In this document: positions 8,243-53,022 of the stretch, in pieces
Position numbering within the stretch: position 1 is the first letter of the stretch
Layout of the letters: every line of letters starts with the position of its first letter
The notes under the pieces: model-generated
Told to the model about the DNA's origin: nothing
Seen by the model: the letters and a program-made list of their open reading frames with translations, nothing else
The model's database searches: none
Made by a program: the position numbers and the translations under genes
Assembly (NCBI RefSeq): GCF_024138715.1
Contig: NZ_CP092074.1
Location: forward strand, 4,030,001-4,094,000
Length of the DNA: 64,000 bases
Direction of reading: 5' to 3'
Source: Emticicia sp. 21SJ11W-3
GTDB taxonomy: Bacteria > Bacteroidota > Bacteroidia > Cytophagales > Spirosomataceae

Positions 8243-8275
8243 TTTGCAAATGCCCGAAACGATACTTTACTTTTG
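8243..8275 (+). promoter_or_regulatory. Promoter of the MFS gene, abutting its start codon
   Basis: TTTG at 8243-8246 and TACTTTTG at 8268-8275 are separated by 21 bp. Only four bases (TAGA) separate the -7 element from the ATG at 8280, so transcription should start at or next to the start codon and give a leaderless or nearly leaderless mRNA. Confidence 0.6.
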
Positions 8276-8279
8276 TAGA

Positions 8280-9470
8280 ATGGAACAACAATCTGAATCT
8301 GAAAGTATCTTCTCTTTTCAATACTGGCTTTTGTGTATCAGTTCACTGGTCTTCTTTGCGAGCTTCAATATGCTTATTCCCGAGCTGCCCGATTACCTCT
8401 CAAAACTGGGTGGTGCAGAGTACAAAGGTCTTATCATTAGTCTTTTTACCTTAACTGCCGGGTTTTCAAGGCCTTTCAGCGGCCGGCTTACCGACCGCAT
8501 CGGCCGGGTACCTGTTATGGCCTTTGGCTCGCTGGTTTGTTTCGTATGCGGATTCTTTTATCCGTTAGTTACATCTGTTATGCCTTTTTTGTTTTTACGA
8601 TTAGCGCACGGGTTCTCTACCGGCTTTAAGCCAACAGGCACTGCTGCCTATATTGCAGATATTGTACCGGCATCAAGAAGAGGAGAAGCAATGGGAATGC
8701 ACGGGTTGATGAGTAGTTTCGGGATGGCCTTTGGCCCAGCACTTGGCAGCTGGATTGCCGATACCTTCTCTATGAATGTTTTGTTTTATGTATCGTCTAT
8801 GTTTGCGCTTATATCCATTGCTATTTTATACAACATGAAAGAAACCCTGCCTGTAAACCAGCAGGAAAAACTCAGTTTAAAAACATTGAAGATTACGCAG
8901 AGCGATATTTTTGATGAGATGGTGCTTCCGGCGGCTGTTGTTATATTTCTGACTTCTTTCAGCTTCGGAGCCATTGCCACGCTATCGCCCGACCTCAGTA
9001 AAAGTATCGGGCTGCACAATAAAGGGCTGTATTTTCTGGTATATACCCTGGCCTCTTTATTTATACGTTTTATGGCCGGTAGAATATCTGATAAAAACGG
9101 CCGTGTGCCAGTGCTGCGCTGGGGCTGTTTTGCGCTCATAATTGCCATGGGGTTCACGGCATTTGCCCATAATATTTATCTGTTTGTAATTGCGGCTGTT
9201 TTCTTTGGTATGGCACAGGGGGTGCTGTCTCCTATTTTGCAGGCATGGACAATCGACTTGTGCGATGAACACAACCGCGGACGCGCCCTTGCTACCATGT
9301 ATATATGTATGGAAGCCGGCATTGGTCTGGGCGCTTTTCTTTCTGCCGAGATTTACCAGAATCAGCTTTATCGTATGCCCTATGCTTTTCTTATCATGGG
9401 CGGGCTCGCCATTCTGGCTTTCGTATATTTGTTTACAGGCAAGGTACGCCGTATTAAGGAGGCATTTTAA
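8280..9470 (+). CDS. MFS transporter
   Basis: I set the start at the ATG at 8280 (MEQQSESESIF) because the upstream in-frame TTG and ATG lie inside the promoter. The 396-residue protein has about 12 membrane segments, motif A at residues 68-79 (GRLTDRIGRVPV), and a related motif in the second half (AGRISDKNGRVPVL). The pattern fits the drug/sugar efflux branch of the MFS. The substrate cannot be told. The stop overlaps by 4 bp the convergent Nudix gene; no other gene shares its transcript. Confidence 0.85.
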   Translation: MEQQSESESIFSFQYWLLCISSLVFFASFNMLIPELPDYLSKLGGAEYKGLIISLFTLTAGFSRPFSGRLTDRIGRVPVMAFGSLVCFVCGFFYPLVTSVMPFLFLRLAHGFSTGFKPTGTAAYIADIVPASRRGEAMGMHGLMSSFGMAFGPALGSWIADTFSMNVLFYVSSMFALISIAILYNMKETLPVNQQEKLSLKTLKITQSDIFDEMVLPAAVVIFLTSFSFGAIATLSPDLSKSIGLHNKGLYFLVYTLASLFIRFMAGRISDKNGRVPVLRWGCFALIIAMGFTAFAHNIYLFVIAAVFFGMAQGVLSPILQAWTIDLCDEHNRGRALATMYICMEAGIGLGAFLSAEIYQNQLYRMPYAFLIMGGLAILAFVYLFTGKVRRIKEAF

Positions 9471-9904
9471 AACCAGGCTTGTTCAAGCTTACCAACGTAT
9501 TTATCGGCAAGTTTGCCTGCCAAATGCGCTTGAAGGCTGATGCTGACGTTAGGATACAGATGCAGGGTGTCCAGGTCTGCAATATCAACCCACCTGATGT
9601 CAATGGCCGAGGTATGCTCGGGGTTCAATGCTGGTGTGCCTGCAGTAATTTTTCCCTCAAAAATAAAATGGATACATTGCTTCTGTTGCTCTGAGAAATG
9701 CACCTCTCCTACCATTAGCAGCTCGCCTATCTGTGCTTTAATGCCCAGCTCTTCTTCCAGCTCGCGCTCAAGTGCGGCGGTGAGCATTTCGCCATACTCA
9801 AGGTTACCACCCGGTAAATTAAATACGTCCTGTCCTCCATACTGGTAATGCATGGTTAATAACTTATCATCTTCTAGAATGACAACAGCCGGTCTGATTT
9901 TCAT
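9467..9904 (-). CDS. Nudix hydrolase
   Basis: The 145-residue single-domain protein has a complete Nudix box at residues 33-55: G-x5-E-x7-RELEEELGI, with the conserved Arg and Glu residues that bind the metal. These enzymes hydrolyse nucleoside diphosphates linked to another group (X) and often clean up oxidised or excess nucleotides. Nothing outside the box tells the substrate. It converges with the MFS gene and is followed on its strand by the 3' remnant of the split peptidase, so it was probably a neighbour of that gene before the insertion. Confidence 0.9.
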   Translation of the reverse strand: MKIRPAVVILEDDKLLTMHYQYGGQDVFNLPGGNLEYGEMLTAALERELEEELGIKAQIGELLMVGEVHFSEQQKQCIHFIFEGKITAGTPALNPEHTSAIDIRWVDIADLDTLHLYPNVSISLQAHLAGKLADKYVGKLEQAWF

Positions 9905-10025
9905 AGCTATTCAACTCAAAGTGGATTTTTCTACAATAATGAATTAGTGAAGGGTGAATTAGCGAATAACAGGTAATCAATTCACCATTCTTAATATCAT
10001 CATTACGAATCTAATAGGTTACTAT

Positions 10026-10169
10026 TTATTTCAATGCAGTGTCGTAAAACTTGTCTGCGTCTTTTTTTAGTTTTATTAACGATTCTTTATGGATATACAT
10101 CATGTGTCCGGCCTCAAAATACGTAAAATTTACATTTTTCTTTTGTTCGGGGCGTAGCATCATGTGGTT
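10026..10169 (-). pseudogene. Detached 3' end of the S10 peptidase gene
   Basis: Forty-seven codons and a stop read NHMMLRPEQKKNVNF, then the catalytic-His motif EAGHMMYIHK, and end in DKFYDTALK. This is the missing C terminus of the S10 carboxypeptidase whose front part ends at 12472. The fragment is in frame, has no damage and lies on the same strand, so the two pieces were one gene until a 2.3-kb insert separated them. It has no start codon context of its own and should not be made as a protein. Confidence 0.88.
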
Positions 10170-10196
10170 AGATGTTTATATATGAGCAAAAGGGTT

Positions 10197-10224
10197 AAAA
10201 GTAAAGCCCCAAAGGGTAGGGGCT
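10197..10224 (-). terminator. Probable terminator of the restriction-modification genes
   Basis: On the minus strand, the hairpin AGCCCC-taccctttg-GGGGCT is followed by TTTACTTTT. It lies inside the island between the methylase and the peptidase 3' fragment. The T tract is interrupted, so strength is uncertain. Confidence 0.5.
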
Positions 10225-10277
10225 GGTAAAAAAATCTTACACTTAAAATATTTTATCAAGTTGTTAAAATGGGTTGC

Positions 10278-10358
10278 TTATTTTTCGGTTTCTAAGATTA
10301 AACTGCCTTTTCCTTATCCCTCGGTACTGACACGATAGTATGCAATAGCTTTTTTTCT
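10278..10358 (-). pseudogene. Serine-recombinase N-terminal remnant
   Basis: In the methylase frame the codons read KKAIAYYRVSTEG, the start of a serine recombinase with the catalytic Ser of the Y-x-R-V-S motif. A TAA follows where the family has a Gln codon. Beyond it the same frame continues GKGSLILETEK and stops, which still resembles the family sequence QGKSGLxLEAQ. So about 26 codons of a recombinase remain, with a nonsense change and loss of everything downstream. The front is fused to the methylase. It may be the relic of the enzyme that moved the island. Confidence 0.65.
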
Positions 10359-11351
10359 ATCTTTTTGTGATATATTTTGTATTCGTTTATTTTTAATTAA
10401 TATCCTAAAATATGGGCATTTCCCATCTATTGATAAGTCTTTGTCATCGTTTCCTTTTCTGAATTTAATTAGCTCAAATTGGTCAGGATTAAATTTATGT
10501 AAAAATGTAATAGGTACCCCTATATGCCCATCATAGTCCAATGGTATGACTTCTGTTTTATCAACGTTTATACCTTCATAGTTGTCATATTTTGGATATT
10601 TATCTTCATTTCCAAAGTATTTTTTTGTTAGTTGAATGTCTTCGTGTCGCTTAAAGTTGTCCAAGTTGGTTAGCCATAAGCAATTATTTGGTGATACTAT
10701 TCTGTTTCCAAGATTATCTATTCTTGCTTCTGTGCCATAAAGTTCGTAGTGGTCAGGCACAATAAAGCCTGAAATACCTCTGCCAAGATTTATCCCTAAC
10801 CAAGCTTTATTATCTTTGATAAGCTTAAAAATTTCTTTGTATGTAATTGCGTTTATATTGCCAATTATTAAAAATTTCTTATCATACTTTACCAATTGTG
10901 CTACATATTCTCTGAATAACGAGAATGGGGGGTTTGTAACAACAATATCTGATTGCTTTAATAGTTTAATGCTTTCAGGACTGCGGAAATCGCCATCACC
11001 TTTAAAGTGAACAATATCATTAGAATTTGGCTTGTCCGTTTCTCCCTCTTTACCAGTATATTCAAAGAAAAAACCATTTTCAGTTTCTTCTGTATTAAAT
11101 AAATCATTCTTTTTTTCTTGATAGCAAGCAGCAATCAATTTTTTTAGTCCTAATTCTTTGAAATTGGATGAAAAATATTTAAAAAAGTTACTGATACGAG
11201 CATCATCACAATTACAAAAAACTACCTTGTCTTTAAAATGGTTTTTATAATATTTTAATTCACTTTCTATATCGGAAAGCTGTGTATAGAATTCATCGCT
11301 TTTCGATTTCTTAGCTTTTTGCAATAATTTATTATTTGCGTTTCTTGCCAT
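10314..11351 (-). CDS. EcoRI-type adenine-N6 DNA methyltransferase
   Basis: The 345-residue protein follows M.EcoRI from its first residues (MARNANNKLLQKAKKSKSDEF) to the end (CPYFRILIKNKR). The catalytic motif IV NPPF is at residues 140-143, and HYELYGTEARID and ITFLHKFNPDQFEL are typical of this family. It should methylate the second A of GAATTC and so protect host DNA from the nuclease next to it. The gene starts 9 bp after the endonuclease stop, the same order as in the E. coli system. It is about 19 residues longer than M.EcoRI because the end runs into a recombinase remnant (AIAYYRVSTEG). Confidence 0.93.
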   Translation of the reverse strand: MARNANNKLLQKAKKSKSDEFYTQLSDIESELKYYKNHFKDKVVFCNCDDARISNFFKYFSSNFKELGLKKLIAACYQEKKNDLFNTEETENGFFFEYTGKEGETDKPNSNDIVHFKGDGDFRSPESIKLLKQSDIVVTNPPFSLFREYVAQLVKYDKKFLIIGNINAITYKEIFKLIKDNKAWLGINLGRGISGFIVPDHYELYGTEARIDNLGNRIVSPNNCLWLTNLDNFKRHEDIQLTKKYFGNEDKYPKYDNYEGINVDKTEVIPLDYDGHIGVPITFLHKFNPDQFELIKFRKGNDDKDLSIDGKCPYFRILIKNKRIQNISQKDRKKAIAYYRVSTEG

Positions 11352-11360
11352 AATTGCTCT

Positions 11361-12197
11361 TTATTTACTTTTAGTAATCTGATTGAACAAATCACTTCCT
11401 AACACTTTAAGGGAGGTTTTTGCAATTTCAAACATAATTTCAAACATTTCTGTTCTGTCCCACCTTTCTCCTTTCCCTTGTGTGTAGATAGACGCTGCTT
11501 GAAGCATAATCGTCTTGTCTTTATGCTGAACAAATTTATTTTCACACAAATTGGTGTTAATGGGCATTCCAAAATTTGCTGAGGTCAGTCTATCTAATCT
11601 ATTTAACATCCCTGAGTTATATTCAAGCGTTACAATCCTACCATCATGTCCTATAATCGAAATTGTTTCTGTCAAAAAGTTTGAACCTTCTAAAAATAGT
11701 ACATAAGGAAAATGGGATTCAGAAAGCATATAGTTAGCAATTTCTGATATGTTTTTATGTGACCTTTCTATCGCATTTCCCGCAGCCATTAAGTCTTGAT
11801 TATTAGCCGTACCGACTAAAATTCCCTTTCTAATGTTTTCTATGTCTTTTCCTTGATGTTTAGCTTCTGTCACCAAAACTATTCTCCATTCATCGTTATC
11901 ATCTTTTACTTTGATTATTCCGCCATCAGGAATAATTCTTGAATTTGGAACAAAAAGCGTTTGACCTAATTCTGGGTCAATTTTCTTTAACGCTGCATTT
12001 ATTTCTTCTTTTCGTATGTATTTTTTATATTGAAACGTCAACTGAGGATAATCCATTTCAAGTTTTTCAATAACAAGTTTTGATATTTGTCCAACAGTTA
12101 AATCGTGTGACTTTGCCCCATCCCCGAAGATGCTTACAACGCCTTGCGATTTTTTATGCTGGGTTGTCAACCTTGTTGATTGGTTCTTTTCAGCCAT
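11361..12197 (-). CDS. EcoRI-type type II restriction endonuclease
   Basis: Starting at the ATG at 12197 (MAEKNQSTRLTTQHK; an upstream in-frame ATG at 12236 would add 13 residues) gives 278 residues, one more than EcoRI. With this start the catalytic residues D91, E111 and K113 (PDGG...EAK) and the recognition residues N141, E144, R145 (NAIER), R200 and R203 (NRLDR) all fall at the same numbers as in EcoRI. This strongly predicts cleavage of GAATTC as a homodimer. The methylase gene follows directly. The pair is A+T-rich compared with its neighbours, a sign of transfer. Confidence 0.95.
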   Translation of the reverse strand: MAEKNQSTRLTTQHKKSQGVVSIFGDGAKSHDLTVGQISKLVIEKLEMDYPQLTFQYKKYIRKEEINAALKKIDPELGQTLFVPNSRIIPDGGIIKVKDDNDEWRIVLVTEAKHQGKDIENIRKGILVGTANNQDLMAAGNAIERSHKNISEIANYMLSESHFPYVLFLEGSNFLTETISIIGHDGRIVTLEYNSGMLNRLDRLTSANFGMPINTNLCENKFVQHKDKTIMLQAASIYTQGKGERWDRTEMFEIMFEIAKTSLKVLGSDLFNQITKSK

Positions 12198-12267
12198 AAA
12201 ATTATTTTCTATTTGGTTAAGATCTTGAAATTTCAATTTTGAACCGTGTTTTAGCTTCTTGTTTCAG

Positions 12268-12336
12268 GGTTACGGTGTGTGATGTATGACCACTTGTAAA
12301 ACTTTTTAGCCTGCTTAACAAGTACACACTGTAACC
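12268..12336. repeat. Nested imperfect inverted repeat inside the island
   Basis: Outer arms GGTTACGGTGTGT (12268-12280) and ACACACTGTAACC (12324-12336) match at 12 of 13 positions. Inner arms ACTTGT (12292-12297) and ACAAGT (12318-12323) match fully. The left spacer is 11 nt and the right spacer is absent. It lies upstream of the endonuclease start near one end of the island. It could be a recombination site or a regulatory RNA fold. Confidence 0.6.
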
Positions 12337-12471
12337 AATGCTATTATCGCCCCAGACCTCAATTTTGGGGTCTGTTGTGCTATGGCTGCAACTTAGTTAG
12401 TAATATAAAACTGCAAAATACGGCAATTTTTTAAGATTTGCATTGCCAATAGATAATATGGTATTCAACCT

Positions 12472-13845
12472 TTAAATTAAAGTATATTCAGCAGCAAAAT
12501 AGGGCGTGGCCAGATCATAATACCCGGCGGCTACCCATACCTTCAGGTAAGGATTCTTGGCCATAGCCTGGCGTAGCGTTTCACTTACGTTCAGATATTT
12601 GTTCTGCACGTTGTTGTAGTTCCAGGGTTGAACACGGCCCGTCAGAATCAGGTAGGGCAAATCGTTTTCGTATTTCAGTTCCTGCCGTAAATACTGATTT
12701 ATGGTACCCGAATAAGGGCCAGAAATTGTTGCATCAAGGCTGGGGTCAAACTCATATCTTTCTCCGGCGTTATCATAATCAATTCCGGTAAAGCGGCCGT
12801 CCAGTCGCCCGGCTGTTTTACCTTCGTCACGCAGCAACTCTTTTACAAAACGAAAGATTTCAATCCTGTTATTGGCATTTTTTATAAATTCTTTAGATAA
12901 CCCCGTAAACCTGCTCAGTTTTTCAGTTACCATATTTTTTTCGGCATCACTGGCTAAATCGCCCTTCATTAATACAGTTGCGTAATCGTTAAGCACAAAC
13001 TTCTCAACCTCGCGTAAGGTCTTCTGTAAGTCGGCCTGATACTCCGGTGCTATCTTCTTATGATACCATGCCATGGCGGTGTAAGTTGGTAAGAAAAGCT
13101 CGAACGGCAAATCGTTTCCCTTATCAAAAAGTGCAGTCTGAAAATTGAGGATGGACGATATCAAAGCTACGCCGTTAATATACATATTGTATTTGTCTTG
13201 CAGATACCCCGATAGACCGGCTGCACGAGTAGTGCCGTAGCTCTCGCCGGCCAGAAACTTGGGCGATACCCAGCGGCCATATTTAGTAGCATGCAGCCGG
13301 ATAAACTCCCCTACCGATTCTATGTCTTCTACATAACCCAGAAACTGGCGTTCGCTTTCGCCCTGAGCGGCGCGGCTATAGCCTGTGTTTACAGGGTCAA
13401 TAAACACCAGGTCTGTTTTATCTAACCAGCTGTACTCATTATTAACATACGAATATGGCGGAGCCAGAGACTCTCCTTTGTCGCTCATGGGTATTCTTTT
13501 AGGGCCAATGCAGCCCATGTGCAACCAAACCGAAGCTGAACCGGGGCCTCCGTTAAAAGTATAAGTAACCGGGCGTTTAGACAAGTCCGTTACCCCATCT
13601 TTAGTATAAGCAACAAAGAACACATTAGCTTTTGGCTTTCCGTTTTCATCTTTTACAACCATGTAGCCGGTGCGCGTAGTATAATTAATGGTTTGCCCGC
13701 CAATAACTACCTGGCCTTTGGTTTCAACCGGTGGTGGCACAACCTGAGCAGTAGCCGGCTTTTCATCAGCTTTTTTCTCCGGTGTCTGGCCCAGGGCGGC
13801 CAGGCCAAGCCCTACTAATAGAATAGTATATCTTAGTTTGTTCAT
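12472..13845 (-). pseudogene. S10 serine carboxypeptidase, truncated by insertion
   Basis: The 457-residue piece has a signal peptide (to about AALGQ), the oxyanion motif NGGPGSAS at 98-105, the nucleophile motif GESYGT with Ser 202, and the catalytic Asp in GYYDLATP (Asp 444). It then runs into the insert after AAEYTL and stops one codon later. The catalytic His (EAGHMMYIH) lies on the detached piece at 10026-10169. A protein can still be translated, but it lacks the triad His and should be inactive. Intact members release C-terminal residues from peptides in the periplasm or outside the cell. Confidence 0.88.
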
Positions 13846-13954
13846 GTATGTCAGGGTAATTGTCTGAAAGCAAAAATATAAAAATTACTAAATCAGGCTA
13901 AAAAGTAGATACAAAAAAGAAAACAATTGCCATCTGGTAACAAATCAAAGCCAC

Positions 13955-14866
13955 TTAAAGCCTGAAACCTCTCAGAAAGTCTTCTACGTTCATTCTTTTT
14001 TTACCTTCCATTTGTAGTTCTTTAATACGCAACAGTTTATCGGCACATTTAAAAGCCAGAAAAGTCTTGTTATCGGTCTGCATACCTCCGGCCTCCAAAT
14101 CAGGCGCGTCGGTATCTGTCATTTCAGAAAGATATACCTTGCAGGTTTTGCCCGCGAGGGTTGTCCATGCCCCCGGATACGGCGATAACCCACGAATAAA
14201 ATTCTGTACTTTCTCTGCTGGCTGGCTCCAGTTAATCTCACAGGTTTCTTTAAATATTTTGGGTGCGGGGCGTAGTTCATCATCTGAATGCTGCGGCAAT
14301 TGCGGATAATCTCCAATCTCAATTGCTTTAACTGTTTTTAAAACCAGGTCGGCGCCTCGTTCCATCAGCCTGTCATGAACTGTTCCGGCGTTATCGTGCG
14401 GATAAATCGGTTCCTTGTCTACAAAAATAATATTGCCCGTGTCAATTTCCTGTTTTATAAAGAAAGTGGTTACACCTGTTACGGTATCGCCGTTAATAAC
14501 CGCCCAGTTAATAGGCGCAGCGCCTCTGTACTGCGGCAGTATAGAACCATGCAGATTAAAAGTACCCTTGGGTGGCATATTCCAAACCACTTCTGGCAGC
14601 ATTCTGAAAGCCACCACCACCTGCAAATCTGCATTGAAACTTTTTAGCTGCTCCAGAAACTCAGGATTCTTGAGCTTTTCAGGTTGCAAAACAGGTATAT
14701 TCTGAGACACCGCATATTTTTTCACAGGTGTTTCGTTCATTTGCAGGCCCCTGCCCGACGGCTTGTCGGGGGCTGTTACCACCGCTACTACTTCGCATCC
14801 GTTCTCTACCAGCTTCCTTAAACTCGCCACTGCAAAATCTGGCGTACCCATAAAAACTATTCTCAT
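13955..14866 (-). CDS. fmt: Methionyl-tRNA formyltransferase
   Basis: The 303-residue protein transfers a formyl group from 10-formyl-tetrahydrofolate to Met-tRNA, making the initiator tRNA. It begins with the Rossmann-like MRIVFMGTPDFAVASL. The folate-binding core NLHGSILPQYRGAAPINW is at about 107-124, with catalytic Asn, His and the SxLPxxRG loop, followed by the DTGNI segment with the catalytic Asp. The C-terminal OB-fold domain recognises the tRNA. Length is close to the family norm (about 310). It is divergent from greA, and folA at 31 kb belongs to the same folate pool. Confidence 0.97.
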   Translation of the reverse strand: MRIVFMGTPDFAVASLRKLVENGCEVVAVVTAPDKPSGRGLQMNETPVKKYAVSQNIPVLQPEKLKNPEFLEQLKSFNADLQVVVAFRMLPEVVWNMPPKGTFNLHGSILPQYRGAAPINWAVINGDTVTGVTTFFIKQEIDTGNIIFVDKEPIYPHDNAGTVHDRLMERGADLVLKTVKAIEIGDYPQLPQHSDDELRPAPKIFKETCEINWSQPAEKVQNFIRGLSPYPGAWTTLAGKTCKVYLSEMTDTDAPDLEAGGMQTDNKTFLAFKCADKLLRIKELQMEGKKRMNVEDFLRGFRL

Positions 14867-14938
14867 ATTTTATCTGTTGTATAGTTACATGGTATCAAAT
14901 ATGTAGTATCAAAAATACATCAATTAAAAAAATCTTTG

Positions 14939-14946
14939 TACCTTTG
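14939..14946 (+). promoter_or_regulatory. Possible -7 element of greA
   Basis: TACCTTTG matches the Bacteroidota -7 consensus TAnnTTTG, but no TTTG is seen at the expected upstream distance. A start near 14952 would give a greA leader of about 165 nt containing a small open reading frame and two terminator-like hairpins. Confidence 0.4.
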
Positions 14947-14963
14947 TTATCTAAATTACACAA

Positions 14964-15014
14964 ATGAACCAAAGTCGAGCAAATAAAGTATTTTTTCGAG
15001 TAAAATTCAGGTAG
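14964..15014 (+). CDS. Possible 16-codon leader peptide of greA
   Basis: ATG at 14964 opens a frame reading MNQSRANKVFFRVKFR and stops at 15012. It begins about 12 nt after the predicted transcript start and ends just before the two hairpins in the greA leader. The peptide is short, very basic (five Arg/Lys) and matches nothing I know. Without conservation data it may be chance; its position between promoter and terminator-like hairpins is the only support. Confidence 0.25.
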   Translation: MNQSRANKVFFRVKFR

Positions 15015-41525: not shown

Positions 41526-42941
41526 TTAAACCAGGTTAACAATAGTTTCTTCTATTGCCACTGTATTACCTGTTTTTACCCACTCGTTCATACCACCCGA
41601 GTAATTGCTAATGCGCTCAAATTCGTTTTTTTTCAGTATAGAATATCCAATGGCGGCTCTGTCGCCTCCCTGGCAGTAAATCACAACCTCTTTGTCTTTA
41701 TTCAGCTTATCAAGATTTTGCGGAAGTGTGCCAATAAATACATTTTCGGCGCCAGGTATGTGTCCGGTTTTATATTCAGATGCACCTCTTAAATCAATGA
41801 GTTGAATGTCATCAGTGCTGGCCATATTCCTGAATTCATCAATAGTCAGCACATGGCTTACTTCAAGTTCAATACCCAGGTTATTTACATCATTAATATA
41901 CCCCAGCACGTTATCAAGGCCTATGCGCATTAGTTTGCGGGTAAGGTCTTCAATCTGCTTATCTTCAGCCACCAGCATAAATGGCTCCTGATAATTCAAA
42001 AACCAGCCCATCCAGGTAGCAAAAGAGTTATTACCCTGAACATTCAGGCTCCCGGGTACGTACCCGGCTGCAAAATCAGCCTTATTGCGGGTATCAATCA
42101 GCTTTATTCCTGCAGCCAACCCTTCCAGCACCTGCTCGGCGGTTAACTTTGTCTGTTCGGGTACCGTTGTTAACAAGGGTCTGTCTGTCTTGTTAAGCAT
42201 TTTCATCATGGCAAAGTACTTAGGAGGTTCAGGCTGGTCAGCCAACAGATTCTCCGAAAAACCTTCGGGGTCTTCCGGGTATTGAAAAGCCCAGTTTCTT
42301 ATCTTCTCATAGCCTACTGTGGTGCTGGCTACAGCGCCCAAAGCCTTACCACAGGCCGAACCAGCCCCATGCCCTGGCCAAACCTGCACGTAATCAGGCA
42401 GTTGCTCAAACTTCTGCAAAGACTGATACATTTGTCTGGCACCTGCATCCATAGTACCTTTTAATCCAGCGGCTTTTTCCAGTAAGTCTGGTCTGCCAAT
42501 ATCGCCGACAAAAACAAAATCTCCGGTAAACAGCATAACGGGCGCACTGGAGGCTGGCGTATCTGTCAGAAGAAAACTGATGCTTTCTGGCGTGTGCCCC
42601 GGTGTATGCAGCACCTCAAATTTCAGATTTCCTACCTTAATAAGACTACCGTCTTTCAGCGCTATGTGGTCAAAAGCATATTGCCAGTCGGGGCCGCCTT
42701 CATCTGACAGGTACATACCGGCACCGGTAATGGCAGCCAGTTCTCTGGCACCTGAAAGGAAATCGGCATGAATATGCGTTTCAGCAATATGTGTAATTTG
42801 CATATTGTTCTGCCGGGCTATTTCAAGGTAGGTATCTACATCTCTTTTGGGGTCAATAACCATTGCCACACCGGCTTTCTGGCAGCCAATAAAATAACTT
42901 CCCTGCGCCAGCGATTTGTCGTATATATGTTGAAAAAACAT
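41526..42941 (-). CDS. Persulfide dioxygenase-like MBL protein with two rhodanese domains
   Basis: The 471-residue protein has a metallo-beta-lactamase fold at 1-250: ETHIHADF (His 56, His 58, Asp 60), HTPGHT (His 112, 116), Asp 141 (TGDFVFVGD) and His 191 (WPGHGAG), as in ETHE1/CstB-type sulfur dioxygenases that turn glutathione persulfide into sulfite. A rhodanese domain at about 265-360 lacks the catalytic Cys (FMLVAEDKQI in the loop). A second at 365-465 has it (Cys 423 in YCQGGDRAA). So persulfide could be handed from the active rhodanese to the dioxygenase. It has its own promoter with the shared operator. Confidence 0.9.
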   Translation of the reverse strand: MFFQHIYDKSLAQGSYFIGCQKAGVAMVIDPKRDVDTYLEIARQNNMQITHIAETHIHADFLSGARELAAITGAGMYLSDEGGPDWQYAFDHIALKDGSLIKVGNLKFEVLHTPGHTPESISFLLTDTPASSAPVMLFTGDFVFVGDIGRPDLLEKAAGLKGTMDAGARQMYQSLQKFEQLPDYVQVWPGHGAGSACGKALGAVASTTVGYEKIRNWAFQYPEDPEGFSENLLADQPEPPKYFAMMKMLNKTDRPLLTTVPEQTKLTAEQVLEGLAAGIKLIDTRNKADFAAGYVPGSLNVQGNNSFATWMGWFLNYQEPFMLVAEDKQIEDLTRKLMRIGLDNVLGYINDVNNLGIELEVSHVLTIDEFRNMASTDDIQLIDLRGASEYKTGHIPGAENVFIGTLPQNLDKLNKDKEVVIYCQGGDRAAIGYSILKKNEFERISNYSGGMNEWVKTGNTVAIEETIVNLV

Positions 42942-52766: not shown

Positions 52767-53022
52767 CGTAAATAGATTTTATCTATGCAAATATACAAAA
52801 CATCAACCCTGTTTAACACCTTAACGCTTCTAAAAATGCAGCTGTAGTTGCGGCTGAAAGGCAGCAAAGCAGGTTTGTCCATATATGAACAAAGAACTGT
52901 CCGTTTTCGGACAGTTAACCACAGGCAAAAAAAACATAAAATACTATATATCAACCATTTATATTTATTGGTATAGGGTTTGCAGATGCTTTATTCAAAG
53001 ACCTGTTCCTTAATACAAAATT

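Follow-up and report, generated by a model that had tools for sequence, protein, structure and literature searches.

In the EcoRI restriction-modification (R-M) system, the restriction endonuclease gene (R) precedes the methyltransferase gene (M) on one strand. The passage of R-M systems from plasmid to chromosome has mostly been inferred from end states. For the PaeR7I plasmid, PMC3031569 describes entry into the Escherichia coli chromosome through IS1/IS5 cointegration, through aberrant insertion of an insertion sequence (IS) together with nearly the entire plasmid, or through crossing-over at 1–3 bp, and it mentions R-M insertions with a long, variable target duplication. Resolvase systems are treated in two further sources, where res sites, including staphylococcal sin-res, appear as hotspots for transposons (PMC3276174) and resolvase-made cointegrates, in which two molecules are joined, are given at ~1.4e-3 and 2.1e-4 (PMC12217951). 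Here we analyse a 64-kb stretch of chromosomal DNA (the window; positions 4,030,001 to 4,094,000 of NZ_CP092074.1), in which an S10 carboxypeptidase-like gene is split by an insert carrying an EcoRI-type R-M pair. Both ends of the insert are of plasmid type, and its right end stops at the centre of a 32-bp palindrome found beside a plasmid recombinase. We propose that a plasmid R-M segment was joined by the plasmid's resolvase to a look-alike site in the S10 gene, a reading to which we give a probability of roughly 0.75.

An S10 gene cleanly split by a 2.3-kb insert

The two pieces of the gene lie on the same strand:

12479..13845, minus strand: S10 carboxypeptidase-like gene, front piece (PF00450), holding GESYG and GYYD; intact same-genus homologues in L002-L004
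10026..10169, minus strand: S10 tail with GHMMYIH, assigned by open-frame comparison with relatives

The open reading frame (ORF) of the front piece (12472-13845, minus strand, 457 aa) terminates after AAEYTLI, its stop at 12472 falling inside the insert, and matches PF00450 at 57.5 bits (cut-off 21.9) over profile positions 5–355 of 420. The tail reads NHMMLRPEQKK...GHMMYIH...ALK. An earlier note on this DNA had proposed that an R-M island split the gene, to be checked in close relatives, and these bear it out. Three same-genus genomes (G008, G002 and G001, that is, L002, L003 and L004) carry a single continuous S10 gene at the same locus, in which window positions 12479 and 10169 align one base apart (the empty site in L004 is ATACTTTCAACCACATG); the DNA flanking the insert on both sides aligns with this locus. 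Their identity is 87.6–89.3% (amino acids) to the front piece and 93.6% to the tail. Ten other genomes of the genus were searched, and the seven besides these three had only S10 homologues of 41–43%, one of them partial. GHMMY follows in the same open frame, 20–23 residues past the break, in 27 of 29 homologous loci (L002-L030), the two exceptions being a contig end (L028) and a weak 57-residue match (L029). A naturally short S10 gene, with homologues ending at the same place, was rejected on this count, and the small fragment, which might have belonged to a different gene, forms the last part of S10 in these same-genus relatives. The window's own genome holds a single S10 match. Because the frame runs through GHMMY in related loci and the gene is continuous in the same-genus genomes, we take it as confirmed that the S10 gene was once whole and was then split.

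The catalytic Ser of GESYG, aligned to GESY of KEX1, and the His of GHMMY were each invariant in 15/15 aligned relatives. We take this His to be the catalytic one of the S10 family, an assignment supported by its invariance; structure alignments (KEX1 and others from PDB searches) did not extend to the C-terminal His, and the PF00450 match of an intact relative (61.5 bits, profile 5–370 of 420) stops short of it. The motif is not in the same polypeptide as the front piece, GHMMY lying 2.3 kb away behind stops, and the S10 product would presumably be inactive. The catalytic His, said earlier to have been removed, is indeed off the front piece, but it is displaced, not deleted.

The insert measures ~2.31 kb (12478 to 10170/10171). 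Windows inside it have 29–34% G+C vs 42–48% in 8250–9999 and 12500–14999. A target duplication was rejected; as had been observed before, none of usable length is present (0–1 bp, or, on the model proposed below, an overlap of 2 bp from the recombinase).

The insert carries an EcoRI-type R-M pair

R and M stand side by side with open frames, in the R-before-M order of EcoRI:

11361..12197, minus strand: EcoRI-type type II restriction endonuclease R, 278 aa, ATG at 12197 (PF02963, 478.7 bits)
10314..11351, minus strand: EcoRI-type adenine methyltransferase M, 345 aa (PF13651, 433.7 bits)

R matched the EcoRI structure 1ckq at 444 bits across residues 3–276 and shares 74–76% identity with copies on plasmids of Escherichia, Klebsiella and Raoultella; PADLOC called the pair REase_II and MTase_II. 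A pattern-based scan of 84,980 species found 37 relatives, the closest at 84–88%, mostly in Bacteroidota metagenome-assembled genomes (MAGs). Within the window's family, EcoRI-family R was present in 4 of 200 genomes (own genome counted) and is therefore sporadic. Both proteins are presumed to work, in which case they would cut and methylate GAATTC. The suggestion that the event was recent stays plausible but undated: both R-M genes have open frames, the tail retains its high identity to relatives, and GAATTC is not avoided in the 64-kb window (11 seen vs 11.7 expected).

M is without the C-terminus of its close relatives (e.g. ..KKASRQQAFGAMAGDLVN in L047). It ends ..KKAIAYYRVSTEG, which is a serine recombinase start, and a comparison of C-termini showed that its final ~10 residues (AIAYYRVSTEG) come from a recombinase-gene relic. 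The transition from M to this relic falls in an A-rich stretch that the two have in similar form. DNA homology to other EcoRI loci spans at most about insert positions 265–2133, leaving both insert ends outside.

Two observations concern EcoRI pairs elsewhere. In several MAGs and in Flavobacterium covae (L046-L051, L078), the pair lies between repeats whose ends resemble CCAAACCG followed by TTG; these are reminiscent of integron gene cassettes, with unconvincing bottom-strand folds, and of the 14 genomes tested that supplied EcoRI loci, one (G233, from which L078 comes) had an integron integrase scoring above cut-off. In L034/L035 (G095) and L080, apparently the same genome, the R gene is missing its middle (464 bp by alignment), while the neighbouring M aligns to residue 333 at 89%; this is perhaps a solitary-methylase state.

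Both insert ends are of plasmid type

Only R-M genes and short non-coding DNA had been thought to lie between the S10 pieces. The R-M genes are as described, but the DNA flanking them is plasmid-derived:

12402..12480, minus strand: left insert end, 79 bp of plasmid leader that match L108 9243-9321 (upstream of its R-M gene) at 94% identity
10170..10224, minus strand: right insert end, terminator-like hairpin and left half of resolvase core, 55 bp, 89% identical to L108 20-74
10276..10362, minus strand: decayed serine-recombinase relic, about the first 29 codons (KKAIAYYRVSTEG-stop-GKGSLILETEK-stop), found by nucleotide alignment

The first 2 bp of the left-end match overlap the junction, and a further 22 bp of leader (12308-12287) match L108 9388-9409. 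The relic is 69% identical in nucleotides to the L108 recombinase gene over 87 nt (E 6e-4) and 74% to that of L152 over 65 nt. Searched separately in 200 genomes of the window's family, both ends had their best foreign match in one plasmid-like contig, G011:C1 (L108; 11,935 bp; E 9.5e-14 and 1.3e-27); weaker matches were seen in G062 (23 bp, right end) and in G131 and G132 (left end, E ~7e-4). G011:C1 encodes ParA, RepA_C, type IV secretion system coupling protein, NikA/MobC, relaxase and resolvase domains, together with a large R-M gene (N6-methylase/specificity) and, apart from it, another N6-methylase gene. There the right-end match is the terminator and half palindrome upstream of the resolvase; on a circular contig the resolvase comes after the R-M gene, and the right-end neighbourhood of that gene thus depends on the assumed circularity. 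In G062:C44 the same core stands beside a 77% identical resolvase, with type III R-M-like genes ~1.4 kb away. The resolvase of G178:C2 has the same coordinates as in the Dyadobacter fanqingshengii plasmid NZ_CP099632, a coincidence that would place the window's family in Spirosomataceae; this plasmid is annotated with relaxase and MobC and typed as non-mobilizable by MOB-suite. Against PLSDB plasmids the insert ends gave only short, chance-like matches, and the 5′ flank found only short matches in its own genome besides itself. Going beyond the split itself, we conclude that the insert is, as these alignments indicate, a fragment of a plasmid.

A right end at the centre of a resolvase core site

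The best palindrome within 300 bp upstream of the recombinase was, in 17 of 30 related loci, a 32-bp GTTCATATAYATACG-NN-CGTATGTATATGAAC whose central two bases vary; these 17 were picked by eye from each locus's best palindrome, and a matrix was built from them. The core lies 38–130 bp from the recombinase start in 16 loci and 237 bp in L130. A matrix site of at least 34 bits was found in 22 of 23 contigs scanned, including six that had not contributed to the training set (L149, L150, L154, L156, L159, L160), with none at this level in L163; extra matches scored 19–21 bits in L113 and L165 and 9–10 bits in L152, L155 and L157. Similar palindromes 153–161 bp upstream in L141, L143, L144 and L146 (~50% identity) were left out of the matrix. 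Among 390 genomes of the order scanned with up to 2 mismatches, the core pattern was exact in G011 and G062 and had 2 mismatches in G280, which was read as chance; a reversed control pattern gave two matches (G104, G302). Viral contigs had no match to the core pattern and three to the recombinase, at 29–35%.

The plasmid core site is GCTCATATATAAACA-TC-TGTTAATATGTGAGC, and the window holds the following in the same register:

10173..10191, minus strand: resolvase core half-site TTTT-GCTCATATATAAACA, top-scoring of the window's 127,964 half-positions
12481..12499, minus strand: S10 left arm resembling the core half-site (TTTT-GCTGCTGAATATACT), on the target side, matrix score 4.8, rank 82 of 127,964
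12479..12480, minus strand: left-junction TT, presumed from the register to be the central dinucleotide; right counterpart TC at 10171-10172

The 15-base arm of the right half-site is identical to 2 of the 34 arms in the matrix. The half-site ends at the core centre, the presumed crossover point of the plasmid's serine recombinase, and S10 DNA follows, the register leaving no spare base at the junction (AAACA-TC-T-AACC). The S10 target, TTTTGCTGCTGAATATACT-TT, falls in the top 0.06% of half-positions (fraction 0.0006), a resemblance that lends moderate support to its having served as a resolvase target.

Other half-site-like sequences in the window lie at 52873-52894 (16.3 and 14.1, a short palindrome) and at 42938 on the minus strand (20.1). 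In L149, L150, L156 and L159 the core stands ~0.46–0.88 kb upstream of the recombinase vs the usual 38–130 bp, with an ORF of 112–298 aa between the two (overlapping the core in L149).

A plasmid resolvase as the probable agent of insertion

The donor would have been a small, probably mobilizable Bacteroidota plasmid with the EcoRI-type pair adjoining its resolvase site. Its small serine recombinase, most likely the inserter, would have cut its own 32-bp palindromic core at the central dinucleotide, the cut core then being joined to the S10 look-alike. The left end falls within the R-M leader and has no half-site; there a second weak plasmid site may have recombined, or a later deletion may have ended at the junction. 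S10 lost at most one base, so both junctions share one S10 breakpoint. This speaks for the arrival of a molecule whose ends were already as they are now, or for a deletion made by the recombinase at the centre; a later deletion of the ordinary kind may have occurred instead, but its stop at the border would then be due to chance. We infer that the recombinase was the agent of insertion. The insert has no recombinase gene beyond the ~29-codon relic and no full core site, and no full recombinase of this kind was found in the own genome (best match 22.7 bits); the insert should therefore be stranded in the chromosome, with no exit by the resolvase route. RepA of G011:C1 had no match in the own genome, an empty answer that shows little.

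Several points weigh against this proposal. The top rank of the right half-site is partly built in, because the matrix contains two sites with the identical arm. On the S10 side, the offset was the best of nine scanned, and three of the four intact relatives show a weak look-alike: at the homologous position the full site ranked 76/4329 in L002, 73/4335 in L003, 200/4305 in L004 and 1/4308 in L005 (L006, where the pattern was placed wrongly, was not counted). The central dinucleotides differ, being TC in the plasmid site and TT in S10. At the left junction the reciprocal right half-site is not there (arm score -11.3, fraction 0.06) and plasmid leader stands instead, so that simple integration of a whole plasmid is not what is seen today. 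As to the donor, no terminal overlap was found in G011:C1, whose circularity is assumed, and no plasmid with this EcoRI pair plus this leader was found, the leader coming from one contig (L108) only.

One variant of the proposal, counted inside its probability, is that the resolvase integrated the whole plasmid at the S10 look-alike and an ordinary deletion then left the R-M segment. We hold this course to be possible but rather unlikely, and the same applies to the form that the deletion would have taken, for example at short repeats such as CTTT, with loss of the recombinase, replication and mobilization genes. The right end at the core centre and the failure to find a full recombinase in the genome fit it, and S10 ...ACTTT and plasmid leader ...CCTTTTTAATTT have a short T-rich sequence in common; against it, S10 itself is short of one base at the very most, so that the deletion would need an endpoint no more than ~2 bp from the S10 border. 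Entry of a plasmid fragment by illegitimate end-joining or with the assistance of R-M, its right end coinciding with the resolvase core by accident, appears improbable. The left end without a half-site and the A-rich stretch where M meets the relic both speak for it, as does the joining of R-M plasmids to the chromosome at 1–3 bp identity, documented in PMC3031569. On the other hand, simple arithmetic gives a random break in a ~12-kb plasmid roughly 4 chances in 10,000 of lying 2 bp or less from the core centre, and the core-like arm on the S10 side stands in the same register.

Insertion of a transposon, an IS or an integron cassette is very improbable, even with the cassette-like ends of the repeats around other Bacteroidota EcoRI pairs: no ORF of the insert was recognised as a transposase, the duplication is 0–1 bp, no inverted repeat pairing the two ends was among the 25 longest of 80 listed, and the insert ends match plasmid leader and resolvase site instead. 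An IS or IS200/IS605-like insertion was accordingly rejected, with neither ends nor transposase seen, as was an integron cassette, given that plasmid leader and a resolvase half-site bound the insert (no search aimed at attC was made). That the split reflects a rearrangement or an assembly error and not an insertion, which its occurrence in one genome only among those searched might suggest, is scarcely credible for a single-contig genome in which both flanks align with the same locus in L002-L004 and the G+C of the insert departs from that of its surroundings.

Defence genes beside the recombinase

At 22 recombinase loci, the first upstream ORF was of R-M type in six (L108, L152, L157, L158, L160, L166) and the second in four more (L109, L148, L150, L161); second ORFs were scanned at seven loci picked by eye (L109, L148, L150, L152, L156, L161, L166), which makes 10 of 22 a mixed count. 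Abi_C (L149), TIR (L148) and Fic (L151, L153, L154) were also found upstream, and the remaining first ORFs encoded a transposase, an RHS protein, DUF3800 or a response regulator, or were without match. On the downstream side, an R-M domain was present in none of 21 scanned ORFs and a ParA-like one in nine (20 ORFs, that of L113 being the second, plus that of L108; L155 and L165 were left out). The loci are not independent, L153 and L154 being one genome; several loci may not be plasmids, with L161, L163, L164 and L165 on contigs that range from 160 kb to 8.8 Mb. Among the two ORFs nearest upstream, a gene for R-M or another defence function recurs at L108, L109, L148, L149, L150, L152, L157, L158, L160, L161 and L166.

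We tentatively suggest, at somewhat less than even odds, that the resolvases of one family of Bacteroidota plasmids double as low-efficiency integrases, with a swappable defence slot by the res core whose genes are now and then stranded at chromosomal look-alikes. If this were true, enzymes of multimer resolution would be a route for R-M systems into chromosomes. Because each participant can be identified here, from the donor plasmid family and its recombinase to the core site and the empty target, the step is open to bench tests.

Comparison with known systems

No description of an R-M insertion ended at a resolvase core was found among the best matches in the open-access literature (titles and starts of abstracts, with subscription papers mostly outside this scope). 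R and M belong to the same families as those of EcoRI, plasmid-borne in E. coli and Klebsiella (PDB 1eri/1ckq). Unlike the plasmid EcoRI, this pair is chromosomal, belongs to Bacteroidota, lies inside a gene and has the C-terminus of M replaced by a recombinase relic. The PaeR7I case (PMC3031569) was likewise a plasmid R-M unit turned chromosomal, whereas here the R-M segment only is present, ending at a resolvase core. The insertions with long target duplication mentioned there also brought R-M genes into a chromosome, but this one has no target duplication. The systems of sin-res (PMC3276174) and the res of SGI1 (PMC12217951) likewise have a palindromic site beside a small serine recombinase; in those cases transposons land in res, or multimers and cointegrates are resolved, whereas here a res-type core appears to have been joined to a chromosomal look-alike.

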